Shown here: in pieces, positions 21,887 to 25,659 of the stretch
Numbering within the stretch: position 1 is the stretch's first letter
Layout: the number at the start of each line of letters is the position of its first letter
Assembly (NCBI GenBank): GCA_945885475.1
Contig: CAMCYR010000032.1
Coordinates: forward strand, 1-36,657
Direction: 5' to 3'
Length of the DNA: 36,657 nucleotides
DNA from: Chitinophaga pinensis
GTDB taxonomy: Bacteria; Bacteroidota; Bacteroidia; 2-12-FULL-35-15
Position numbers and translations under genes: made by a program
Notes under the pieces: generated by a model
What the model saw: only the letters and a program-made list of their open reading frames with translations
Told to the model about the DNA's origin: nothing
Databases searched by the model: none

Positions 21887-23122
21887 ATGGCTAAAGAATT
21901 TTATTTAAAGCACCACTCTTTTCATATTAAGGCAATCTTCAATGCATTAAAAGACATTTTCGAAAAAAACGAATATGCCGATAAGGCAATTGAAAAAGTG
22001 ATGAAGGCAAACAAGTATTGGGATGTTAAGGAACGAGGTTTCGTTTCCGATGTGACTTATGATATGGTTCGGAACTGGCGACTGTTGTTTGTATCCTCAG
22101 GAATGGAGGCGGGTGCGAAACTATCCGATAGAAACCTTTGGATGATTTTTGGAACGTATTTAGTTTTTGACGGCTATGGTCTTCCTGAAAGTAATTACTT
22201 TAAAGGACTGAATGAAAAGAAGATTATATCGCAGCTGGAGAAGTTTCATAAGATCAGAAAAATTAGAGAATCTATTCCTGATTGGTTGGATGAGATCGGT
22301 GAAAAAGAAATAGGGAAAGAATGGGATAAAGTTATTCGCGCATTGAATCAGCGACCGACAACCGTACTAAGAGCGAACTCACTAAAAACAAATCCGAAGG
22401 AATTACAAACAACCTTGGAGGAAGAAGGAATCACCGAAAGTACATTGATCTCCTGGTCGCCCGATGCTGTTGAATTAAAGTTTCAGCGTAACGTTTTCAG
22501 AACAGAAGCTTTTCACAAAGGATTATTTGAAGTTCAGGATGCCTCTTCACAAATGGTATCAGAATTTTTAAATGTTCAACCGGGGATGCGGGTAGTTGAT
22601 GCTTGTGCCGGAGCGGGAGGGAAAACATTGCATTTGGCTTCCTTGATGAAAAATAAAGGACGGATCATTGCATTGGATGTGAAAGCAAGAAAGTTGGAGG
22701 AATTAAAAAAACGTGCAGCCAGAGCCGATGTTCGCATCGTTGAGATCAGGCCAATTGATTCATCAAAAGTTATTAAACGATTAAAAGATACTGCTGATAG
22801 ATTGTTGTTGGATGTGCCGTGTTCCGGTTTAGGAGTGCTGAGAAGAAATCCTGATAGTAAATGGAAATTAACACTTGCGGAAATAGAAAGAGTGAAAGTA
22901 TTGCAAAAAGAGATTCTTACTAATTTTTCAGACATCACTAAAGTAGGTGGGAAGATGGTATATGCTACTTGCAGTATTTTACCATCGGAAGGAGAAGATC
23001 AGATTAAATGGTTTTTAGAAACAGTAGGAGATAAATGGAATTTGCTTGGTGAAAAACGTTACTCGCCAGAAATGTATCATGCAGACGGATTTTATATGGC
23101 CTTGTTGGAACGTGTTAAATAA
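21887..23122 (+). CDS. RsmB/NOP2-family RNA m5C methyltransferase
   Basis: A 411-residue SAM-dependent methyltransferase of the RsmB/NOL1/NOP2/Sun family that makes 5-methylcytosine in rRNA or tRNA. An N-terminal NusB-like helical part (~1-140) precedes the catalytic domain. FEVQDASSQMVSEFL leads to the SAM-binding motif VVDACAGAGGKTLHLA (D238 region). Motif IV is DVPCSGLGVLRRNP (C312) and motif VI is YATCSILPSEGE (C362), the two cysteines needed for catalysis and release. The domain order is as in RsmB (16S rRNA C967), but the exact target is not settled by sequence. It starts at ATG directly after a promoter box. Confidence 0.9.
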   Translation: MAKEFYLKHHSFHIKAIFNALKDIFEKNEYADKAIEKVMKANKYWDVKERGFVSDVTYDMVRNWRLLFVSSGMEAGAKLSDRNLWMIFGTYLVFDGYGLPESNYFKGLNEKKIISQLEKFHKIRKIRESIPDWLDEIGEKEIGKEWDKVIRALNQRPTTVLRANSLKTNPKELQTTLEEEGITESTLISWSPDAVELKFQRNVFRTEAFHKGLFEVQDASSQMVSEFLNVQPGMRVVDACAGAGGKTLHLASLMKNKGRIIALDVKARKLEELKKRAARADVRIVEIRPIDSSKVIKRLKDTADRLLLDVPCSGLGVLRRNPDSKWKLTLAEIERVKVLQKEILTNFSDITKVGGKMVYATCSILPSEGEDQIKWFLETVGDKWNLLGEKRYSPEMYHADGFYMALLERVK

Positions 23123-23593
23123 ATATTCATACCGATAAAATCATTCTTTGGTAATTTATTTTTGTTCTTCGCTTTCTCATTATATTTTATTGAAAAACAT
23201 CAAAATCGAACATTTGCTGAAATTATTTCAAAATTCATAAAAAATAATTTGACTGATTTTTAATGTTTTTCCGAATCTGTTTTGTTTGAAAAGATAAGTT
23301 GTTTTACAATAAATGTTTTTATTTTTTATTTTTTATTTTTATAAAAAATATTTTTCAATCTCTTGCATCGACTTTAAAATCAAATAGTGCAGAGCATTGT
23401 GTAAAAAAATAAAAATGAAAATTCTGCGAGTGAAAAAAATAAATTGAAAACAAGTTTCCGAGTTGATCAAAAATCGTTTCAAGGATATTAACAATATGAA
23501 CAATTATATGTTAATAAAATAAACATTAATTTTTTCGTTTGTGTTAAATATTTTTCTTACTTCGTATCAAATAATTTAATAACCAAAAAAACC
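23123..23593 (+). other. Very AT-rich 470-base intergenic region before the Lys/Ala protein gene
   Basis: No gene is supported here. It contains a run of T5-6/A repeats (23315-23340) followed by an approximate inverted copy, typical of bent or easily melted DNA. A weak promoter-like pair, TTTG at 23538-23541 and TTACTTCG at 23557-23564, lies just before the next gene. A 46-codon open frame continues after the methyltransferase stop (to 23263) but is probably chance. Confidence 0.5.
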
Positions 23594-23755
23594 ATGGCAA
23601 AAAAAGTAGCAAAAAAAGCAGCTCCAAAAAAAGCAGCTAAGAAAGCAGCTCCAAAAAAGGCAGCAAAAAAAGCAGCAAAAAAAGCAGCTCCAAAAAAAGC
23701 AGCAAAAAAAGCAGCTCCGAAAAAAGCAGCTAAAAAAGCAGCTAAGAAAAAGTAA
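23594..23755 (+). CDS. Histone H1-tail-like Lys/Ala/Pro mini-protein (53 residues)
   Basis: The gene is ATG to TAA, 54 codons. The product contains 25 lysines, 22 alanines, 4 prolines, one valine and the start methionine, arranged as KKAA and PKKAA units (MAKKVAKKAAPKKAAKKAAP...KKAAKKK). It has no acidic, aromatic or cysteine residue and no signal peptide. This composition matches the DNA-binding tails of histone H1 and of bacterial H1-like proteins (chlamydial Hc1/Hc2, Bordetella BpH1), but here without any globular domain. It should be a very basic nucleoid- or RNA-binding protein. Synonymous changes (GCA/GCT, AAA/AAG, CCA/CCG) occur between units. An intrinsic terminator follows after 5 bases and a 470-base AT-rich leader region precedes it, which supports a real, separately transcribed gene. 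Confidence 0.8.
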   Translation: MAKKVAKKAAPKKAAKKAAPKKAAKKAAKKAAPKKAAKKAAPKKAAKKAAKKK

Positions 23756-23760
23756 GAAAG

Positions 23761-23784
23761 AGGCTCGTAAGAGCCTTTTTTTTT
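23761..23784 (+). terminator. Intrinsic terminator of the Lys/Ala protein gene
   Basis: The stem is aggctc / gagcct with a gtaa loop, followed by eight T. It begins 5 bases after the TAA stop. Confidence 0.85.
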
Positions 23785-23810: not shown

Positions 23811-24842
23811 TTATTCCTTCAATTCCCTCTGAAACACACCAATACCAGGCTTATCATTTAATGTGATCTTTCCATTGATAAATTGTATTCCATCAAATGG
23901 ATCATTTTTGATTAATAAAGGTCCGTCCAAATCTGCATAATCTGTGAGCGGACTTAATTGTGCGGCAGCGGAAATTGCACAGGAGGTTTCACTCATGCAA
24001 CCCATCAATAGTTTTAGTTTTAATTCACGGGCGCGCTGAATCATTTTATAAGCTTCGTGCATCCCTGTACATTTCATAAGTTTGATATTGATGCCATGAA
24101 AACAATTTTTCACTTTATCGATATCCGAAAATCGCTGAATACTTTCATCCGCATAAAGTGGTAGCGGACTTCTTTCAAAAAGCCAATGTGCATCATCCCA
24201 ATTGTTTTTGGGTAAAGGTTGTTCAACCAGTAATACATTTTTGTCTGATAGCCAATTTATCATCTCCAGCGCCTCTTCTTTGCTTTTCCAACCTTGGTTC
24301 ACATCTATTGCAATTGGTTTGTCAGTGATGCTCCTGATCGTGTTGATTATATCTTTGTCGTTTTCGCCATTTAGTTTCACTTTTAATATACGATATACTT
24401 TTCCTTCCTCTAATTTCTGTTTGACTATTTCCGGTTCATCAATTCCCAACGTATAGGTTGTATAAGGCGTATCTGATTTGTTGCCTCCAAATAACTGCCA
24501 GCAAGGTTTGTTTTCAATTTTGCCTAGCAAGTCATTTAGCGCAATATCAATTGATGCTTTTGCTGCGGTATTATTGGGTGCCAATAAATCAATTTCTTTT
24601 AAAATACGTTCAAGGTCAAATGGTGCTTTTAGATTTTCGATGATCCCTGTTGCTTTTTTTAAAAATGCGAGTACCGTTTCATGTGATTCTCCAAGATATG
24701 GAGGCATACTCGCTTCACCATAGCCGGTTAGTCCTTCGTATTCTAGTTGAACAATTACGATTGGAGTCGTTGTTCGTGTGCCGTGTGCTATTTTAAATGG
24801 TCTATTAAAATAAAGCGTGTATGGTGTATAGGAAAGTTTCAA
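23811..24842 (-). CDS. Dipeptide epimerase (L-Ala-D/L-Glu epimerase type, enolase superfamily)
   Basis: A 343-residue muconate-lactonizing-enzyme-subgroup protein. Visible catalytic parts are the KxK base (K154, K156 in LKVKLNG), the magnesium ligands D180 (IAIDVNQGW), E207 (VEQPLP) and D232 (YADESI), the second base in INIKLMKCTG (K254, K257), and the substrate-binding ADLDGPLL near the end, which is typical of dipeptide epimerases. The usual role is epimerising L-Ala-D-Glu from murein during peptidoglycan recycling. The first codon is TTG with no upstream ATG before a stop, and MKLSYTPYTL fits the family start. It stands alone, between the Lys/Ala gene terminator and a lipoprotein. Confidence 0.9.
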   Translation of the reverse strand: MKLSYTPYTLYFNRPFKIAHGTRTTTPIVIVQLEYEGLTGYGEASMPPYLGESHETVLAFLKKATGIIENLKAPFDLERILKEIDLLAPNNTAAKASIDIALNDLLGKIENKPCWQLFGGNKSDTPYTTYTLGIDEPEIVKQKLEEGKVYRILKVKLNGENDKDIINTIRSITDKPIAIDVNQGWKSKEEALEMINWLSDKNVLLVEQPLPKNNWDDAHWLFERSPLPLYADESIQRFSDIDKVKNCFHGINIKLMKCTGMHEAYKMIQRARELKLKLLMGCMSETSCAISAAAQLSPLTDYADLDGPLLIKNDPFDGIQFINGKITLNDKPGIGVFQRELKE

Positions 24843-25099: not shown

Positions 25100-25115
25100 A
25101 TATGTATTATATTTG
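25085..25115 (+). promoter_or_regulatory. Promoter of the small lipoprotein gene
   Basis: TTTG (25085-25088), 19 bases, then TATATTTG (25108-25115) is the best Bacteroidota promoter match in the window. It overlaps the apparent upstream start at 25102, so the ATG at 25141 is the likely start, with a leader of about 20 bases. Confidence 0.75.
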
Positions 25116-25140
25116 TGTACTAAATAAACAAACTTATAAA

Positions 25141-25659
25141 ATGAAAAAAATACTTTTATTGATTACAGTTCCTGTAGTTTTATTCTTTGCAGGTTGTGGT
25201 AATTCAAAAACGGAAGAGACAGTACTATCAATCCCCGGCATGATGGAAGTTGAATTAAAAATTAATGGAAATCCACTTTTAATAATGATTCCGGATTCTA
25301 CTAGAGGGAAAATGCAGATAGTTGAGCAATCCTGGGGTGCTACTGAAATTCAAGTAGGGAAAGGTTTTCAAATTTCGATAGAAGAGGGTGAAGGCGATGT
25401 TGCACTAATGAAAAGCGATATTGCTGGAAATGATGTAAATAAATTCAAGCGATTTGTTAAAGATGAACCAACTTTGTTGTTTTGGGAATCCGAAATTACG
25501 GCTCCTGAATTTCACTTTTATGCTGTTGTAAAACCTGGAGCGGTATCTTATATCATTAAAGATATTGCAGGCGAAATGTTTGGTGAAAAAGCAGTAGAAA
25601 TGATGGTTGAATCTGCAAAAACATTAAAAGCAAAAGATGCTCCTAAGCCGGAAGCATAA
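25141..25659 (+). CDS. Lipoprotein of unknown function (172 residues)
   Basis: A signal peptide with lipobox, MKKILLLITVPVVLFFAGCG, puts the lipid-anchored cysteine at residue 19. The mature part is about 150 residues, soluble and mixed alpha/beta by composition. It includes MPGMMEVELKINGNPLLIM-like strands with the real opening SIPGMMEVELKINGNP, a FKRFVKDEPTLLFWESE segment and a charged C-terminus (KAKDAPKPEA). I do not recognise a family. The ATG at 25141 was chosen because the promoter covers the longer alternative and because the signal peptide begins there. It is a single-gene unit closed by a terminator 18 bases after the stop. The role is probably in the cell envelope. Confidence 0.75.
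   Translation: MKKILLLITVPVVLFFAGCGNSKTEETVLSIPGMMEVELKINGNPLLIMIPDSTRGKMQIVEQSWGATEIQVGKGFQISIEEGEGDVALMKSDIAGNDVNKFKRFVKDEPTLLFWESEITAPEFHFYAVVKPGAVSYIIKDIAGEMFGEKAVEMMVESAKTLKAKDAPKPEA

Follow-up and report, generated by a model that had tools for sequence, protein, structure and literature searches.

A conserved gene for a minimal, histone H1-tail-like protein in a branch of the Bacteroidota

Comparative analysis of sequences indicates that a short open reading frame (ORF) for a protein almost entirely of Lys, Ala and Pro is a genuine gene, which one branch of the Bacteroidota has conserved and regulates separately. The ORF lies on the forward strand of a 36,657-nt stretch of DNA, here called the window (Table 1). 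Its translation, MAKKVAKKAAPKKAAKKAAPKKAAKKAAKKAAPKKAAKKAAPKKAAKKAAKKK, has 53 residues: 25 Lys, 22 Ala, 4 Pro, one Val and the initiator Met, in agreement with the description in the initial annotation. The protein is built from units of the KKAA or KKAAP type and lacks Arg; it has a mass of 5.4 kDa, a pI of 11.4 and a charge of about +24. These residue counts support the previous comparison with the tails of histone H1. The absence of a globular domain is also borne out, since the K/A/P segment is the entire protein and no Pfam family matched at E≤0.1. The ORF does not reflect background composition, because the next longest peptide made only of K, A, P and V in all six frames of the window has 9 residues. 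AlphaFold, run on the single sequence, gave one helix (residues 12-52, pLDDT 76); because Lys/Ala repeats are readily predicted as helical, we left this model out of the evidence.

Table 1. Position of the K/A/P gene, its control elements and its neighbours in the window.
Feature	Position	Strand	Remark
RsmB/F-type rRNA methyltransferase paralogue (PF01189), upstream neighbour	21887..23122	+	Pfam
Conserved dyad TATGAACAATTATATGTTAATA (general form TAT-N-AACA-N6-TGTT-R-ATA)	23495..23516		99 bp before ATG; presumed regulator site
Conserved promoter-like element TTACTTCGTATCA	23557..23569	+	Loose match to the Bacteroidota -7 element; putative assignment
A-rich leader CCAAAAAAACC, near-invariant, directly 5' of ATG	23583..23593	+	Alignment of relatives
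Gene for free-standing K/A/P-only protein, 53 aa	23594..23755	+	Orthologues at this site in 29 of the 36 genomes of the genus, one of them truncated at the end of its contig
Intrinsic terminator, core stem 23761-23776, then T-run	23754..23783	+	Stem sequence varies among relatives, hairpin kept
MR/MLE (enolase-superfamily) epimerase-like gene, convergent downstream neighbour	23811..24842	-	Sequence match
Unclassified small lipoprotein gene	25102..25659	+	Adjoins K/A genes in other families too

The conservation of the gene was analyzed in a genus set of 36 genomes. The 53-aa protein and the upstream RsmB-like protein served as queries, and the DNA behind the RsmB-like gene was then read. The initial annotation had named a lack of conservation in relatives and the tail of a longer gene in other strains among the grounds for refuting its reading, and it had proposed a search for synteny; neither ground was borne out. 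We found a free-standing K/A/P protein of 33-57 aa at the same site in 29 of the 36 genomes; the copy in G001 is cut by the contig end. Wherever the flank is readable, the gene is located between the genes for the RsmB-like rRNA methyltransferase and the MR/MLE epimerase. Every intact copy of the genus stands alone, with an ATG and a stop codon of its own, which excludes the tail of a longer gene. The orthologues keep about half Lys with Ala/Pro spacers, and their length shifts by whole codons. A hairpin terminator follows them, the sequence of which differs between clades. The terminator noted before in the window was recovered as a hairpin with T-run, the core stem of which lies 5 bases past the stop codon.

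A search of the same 36 genomes found no copy in five of them; four of these (G008, G018, G022 and G023) are 75-83% complete and the fifth, G029, is 98% complete. Two further genomes, G009 (L227) and G028 (L228), retain a near-identical 3' part of the ORF, but the promoter and the codons at its start are gone. The left ends of the two remnants differ, and the one in L228 is in frame with an upstream ATG; the 5' loss may reflect either a deletion or a misassembly. Because of the loss of promoter and start in G009 and G028 and the lack of a detected copy in G029, we conclude that the gene is not indispensable.

The coding sequences themselves show the marks of a translated frame. Across 26 of them the substitutions fall mostly on the third codon position (441, 602 and 1448 at positions 1, 2 and 3, respectively). 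None of the 26 contains a run of at least eight A, while about 26 such runs are expected from synonymous shuffles within each sequence; none of 1000 shuffles reached zero and the minimum was 18. The same test on 12 representatives gave zero in none of 2000 shuffles, although these shuffle figures are inflated by relatedness because the terminal Lys run, which is broken by AAG, is largely inherited. The internal KKK stretches are likewise interrupted by AAG. An apparent avoidance of slippery poly(A) of this kind is expected of a translated frame. Five of the 325 pairwise coding alignments have a gap with a length not divisible by three; as the frame is open in all copies, these gaps are probably artefacts of the aligner. 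The third-position bias, the absence of A-runs of eight or more and the conserved site and control region exclude a chance ORF.

The gene is preceded by an AT-rich intergenic gap of 471 bp (the upstream gene ends at 23122); the same gap measures about 345-590 bp in relatives. The long, AT-rich upstream region that had been called unusual holds for length and composition; the conserved signal is confined to its last ~105 bp, where the mean pairwise identity is 79% as compared to 54% for the next 195 bp. The conserved part contains a dyad, TATCAACA-N6-TGTTGATA, and a TTACTTCGT element, both of which recur in other families. In 33 loci with an intact start, from four families (f1, f19, f36 and f40), the dyad is located 97-105 bp 5' of the ATG. 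Its arms are symmetrical in 97-100% at 7 of 8 positions, and the f40 loci show a matched change on both sides at the second base pair (TTTCAACA-N6-TGTTGAAA). To judge from this symmetry the dyad looks like the site of a dimeric regulator. The promoter-like element TTACTTCGTATCA gave no exact match to a promoter consensus.

Two other explanations for the upstream region were rejected. For a structured RNA there was no Rfam match and no tRNA in the window, and conservation ends at ~105 bp. A replication origin, which the DnaA-box-like 9-mers in the AT-rich gap might imply, is unsupported: TTATNNACA is no commoner in the window than chance, and the same 9-mers form a fixed N6 dyad ahead of other genes.

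The TATYAACA-N6-TGTTRATA dyad, often with a third half-site, was also seen before genes with other products. In six genomes (L193, L194, L196, L199, L203 and L205) it precedes a gene for a putative secreted or outer-membrane-like protein (MKKSVLVIAL...AFAQ). It was found before a ribonucleotide-reductase-small-subunit-like gene in one genome (L200), and it adjoins a PhoH-like gene in three (L197, L198 and L204); these gene names were read from the sequence. The genes with the dyad possibly form a small regulon under a common regulator.

Beyond the genus, the 53-aa query was compared with 296 Bacteroidia genomes, and it matched in 22 of them from eight families. On inspection, most of these matches are free-standing K/A proteins of 35-130 aa. 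Some belong to a larger or different protein; in G147, for example, the match is to a THX-like protein, and in G288 to one of 133 aa whose C-terminus is non-repetitive. Another family (L068 and L087) has a K-rich ORF of 25 aa at the same site, preceded by the same dyad 101 bp before the ATG; because the dyad sits at the same distance, we argue that this is the same gene. In families f40 and f36 the K/A gene adjoins a lipoprotein gene, which in the window is located one gene further (25102-25659). The identity of the lipoproteins to the product in the window is 39% (E=3e-34) in f40 and 32% (E=8e-16) in f36.

Members of this small lipoprotein family stay near the K/A gene across several Bacteroidia families (L242 1909-2445; L245 855-1385; L249 795-1325). 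Two loci of family f40 (L233 1498-1899 and L237 1501-1893) contain a K/A tail that is fused to a C-terminal domain (VGNKAMPRTEVVKKLWVYIKANKLQD), which we take to be SWIB-like from its appearance.

Next to the Pfam search, a comparison of the 53-aa protein with NCBIfam and PHROGs gave nothing meaningful, and one with PDB sequences gave nothing. The Hc1 profile (PF07432, 57 positions) matched neither this protein nor anything else in its own genome. The profile for the Burkholderia-type histone H1-like protein (NF038053, cut-off 80 bits) did not match it either, and the longer K/A relatives from other families scored at most 14.7 bits, far under this cut-off. The protein is Lys-only and has none of the features of the Hc2 type, which are Lys/Arg-rich pentamers, a length of more than 160 aa and a distinct C-terminus. 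It fits a descriptive class, free-standing H1-tail-like, meaning a K/A/P-rich whole protein without a globular domain. To our knowledge, the H1-like proteins described from bacteria are either larger (Hc1, Hc2, BpH1) or occur as tails on a folded domain. A literature search, mainly outside subscription journals, returned no paper on such a free-standing protein in Bacteroidota.

Hc1 is present in 93 of the 296 Bacteroidia genomes and in none of the 22 with matches to the 53-aa protein; the genus has one Hc1 match, which comes from a fragmented and possibly contaminated genome. This non-overlap has a P of 1.7e-4 when counted by genome and of about 0.03-0.11 by family, the latter being rough with an assumed number of families. 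Because the anti-correlation is weak once collapsed to families, the distribution is only a suggestion that the K/A protein may replace Hc1.

A comparison with studied proteins makes it plausible that the 53-aa protein works like H1-like proteins; the likeness is one of composition, and we claim homology to none of them. Like the 53-aa protein, Hc1 (PF07432; HctA of Chlamydia and members in Bacteroidia) is small and basic with a Lys-rich part, and it is common in the same class; however, its conserved N-terminal domain has no counterpart in the 53-aa protein. DNA binding by Hc1 has been assigned to its Lys-rich C-terminus (PMC2848022). Hc2 (HctB) of Chlamydia resembles the 53-aa protein in that it consists mostly of short Lys/Ala-rich repeats, mainly Lys-rich pentamers; it condenses DNA and varies in length by whole repeats (PMC2848022). 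It differs in its size (165-237 aa), the use of Arg together with Lys, the pentamer register and a distinct C-terminal domain. The H1-like proteins of kinetoplastids and Toxoplasma are free-standing proteins of the H1 C-terminal type, which act on chromatin without a globular domain (PMC9769792). These are eukaryotic proteins with a known association with chromatin, 91 aa long in Toxoplasma, and the resemblance may be a convergence in composition. The KPAA tails of AlgP and PhaF from Pseudomonas and the lysine repeats of TopA from Actinobacteria are disordered DNA-binding segments of the same Lys/Ala/Pro kind (PMC9239181, PMC7398561); KPAA peptides bind DNA in vitro (PMC9239181), and the lysine repeats hold TopA more stably on DNA (PMC7398561). 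AlgP, PhaF and TopA carry the tail on a folded domain, whereas in the window the tail is the whole protein. The Burkholderia-type protein (NF038053) is also a K/A/P-rich bacterial H1-like protein, but its profile spans 195 positions.

K/A tails elsewhere in the genome to which the window belongs were surveyed through search matches. Similar tails occur on ribosomal protein L21 (L002), a THX-like small-subunit protein (L005), topoisomerase I (TopA; L006) and adenylate kinase; a DksA-like protein (L003) carries a K/A segment at its N-terminus. The Lys-rich C-terminal extension of the adenylate kinase (L248 1456-2505, minus strand, contig C71) is about 150 aa long. Judging from these matches, Lys-rich segments are evidently in wide use in the lineage, on proteins which act on DNA, RNA and nucleotides, and for this reason composition does not reveal what the free-standing protein binds. 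All 36 genomes of the genus have HU.

To judge from studied proteins that are similar in composition (Hc1 C-terminus, Hc2, AlgP, TopA repeats and H1-like proteins without globular domain), the product probably serves to coat or condense DNA, or else another polyanion. We consider it rather likely that it is a minimal H1-tail-like, non-specific polyanion binder, which is most probably associated with the nucleoid and serves its compaction. The gene would be transcribed and regulated separately, with a regulator at the conserved upstream dyad setting the timing or the amount made. Its product would be a polycation, either disordered or helical on induction, and its binding to nucleic acid would depend on charge and not on sequence. 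Once bound it would neutralise the backbone and aid compaction or bridging of the nucleoid alongside HU; in this way the free protein would do in trans what Lys-rich tails do on Hc1, TopA and AlgP. The near-absence of Hc1 from the genus and the HU in all its genomes fit this reading, while the dispensability of the gene and the weak family-level anti-correlation with Hc1 count against it. Less probable, although worth weighing, is that the product mainly binds RNA or the ribosome as a cationic RNA chaperone or ribosome-associated peptide. The tails on L21 and the THX-like protein of the same genome point in this direction, as do the RsmB-like gene upstream in nearly all members of the genus, the higher RNA affinity of Hc2 than of Hc1 (PMC2848022) and the co-purification of TgH1-like with ribosomal proteins (PMC9769792). 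However, families f36 and f40 keep the lipoprotein neighbour with no methyltransferase seen in the stretch examined, and the genus has the gene as a monocistronic unit under a control region of its own, outside any ribosomal operon.

We think it unlikely that the product organises polyphosphate or links polyphosphate to DNA. The H1-like KPAA tail of AlgP is required for the spacing of polyphosphate granules (PMC9239181), and polyphosphate kinase (PPK; PF02503) occurs in 31 of the 36 genus genomes including the one studied here. But AlgP acts with an N-terminal helical domain, which is missing from the 53-aa protein; G003 lacks a PPK match although its K/A gene is intact; and PPK is also found in 7 of 14 control genomes, its presence saying little because it is widespread in bacteria. 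It is very improbable that the ORF is a non-functional low-complexity frame upheld by repeat slippage. The repetitive composition, the variable length and the 5'-truncated copies in two relatives would be compatible with slippage, but the codon-position bias and the lack of long A-runs speak against it, and the gene keeps its synteny, control region and reading frame with both start and stop codons even where the neighbouring gene is down to 77% identity. Poly-AAA and Pro codons can slow ribosomes, and the ORF might accordingly be read as a Lys/Pro-rich, AAA-rich leader or stalling peptide that regulates a downstream gene; this too has hardly any likelihood, since in the genus an intrinsic terminator directly follows the ORF and the gene beyond it is encoded on the other strand.

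The K/A/P gene belongs to a class that is missed by the usual gene-calling and low-complexity filters. As a conserved tail-only protein (25-57 aa), its product offers the simplest natural test of a Lys/Ala/Pro tail acting alone. More tentatively, the genes may represent a family of their own, the smallest nucleoid proteins to stand alone (25-60 aa, H1 tail only), ancestral to several Bacteroidia families, with its own regulator-bound promoter and replacing Hc1 where this is absent. The finding bears on the origin of linker histones from bacterial Lys-rich DNA-binding proteins, a hypothesis discussed in PMC9769792; if the tentative reading is true, such a family would show in living bacteria the kind of Lys-rich protein from which linker histone H1 has been proposed to descend.
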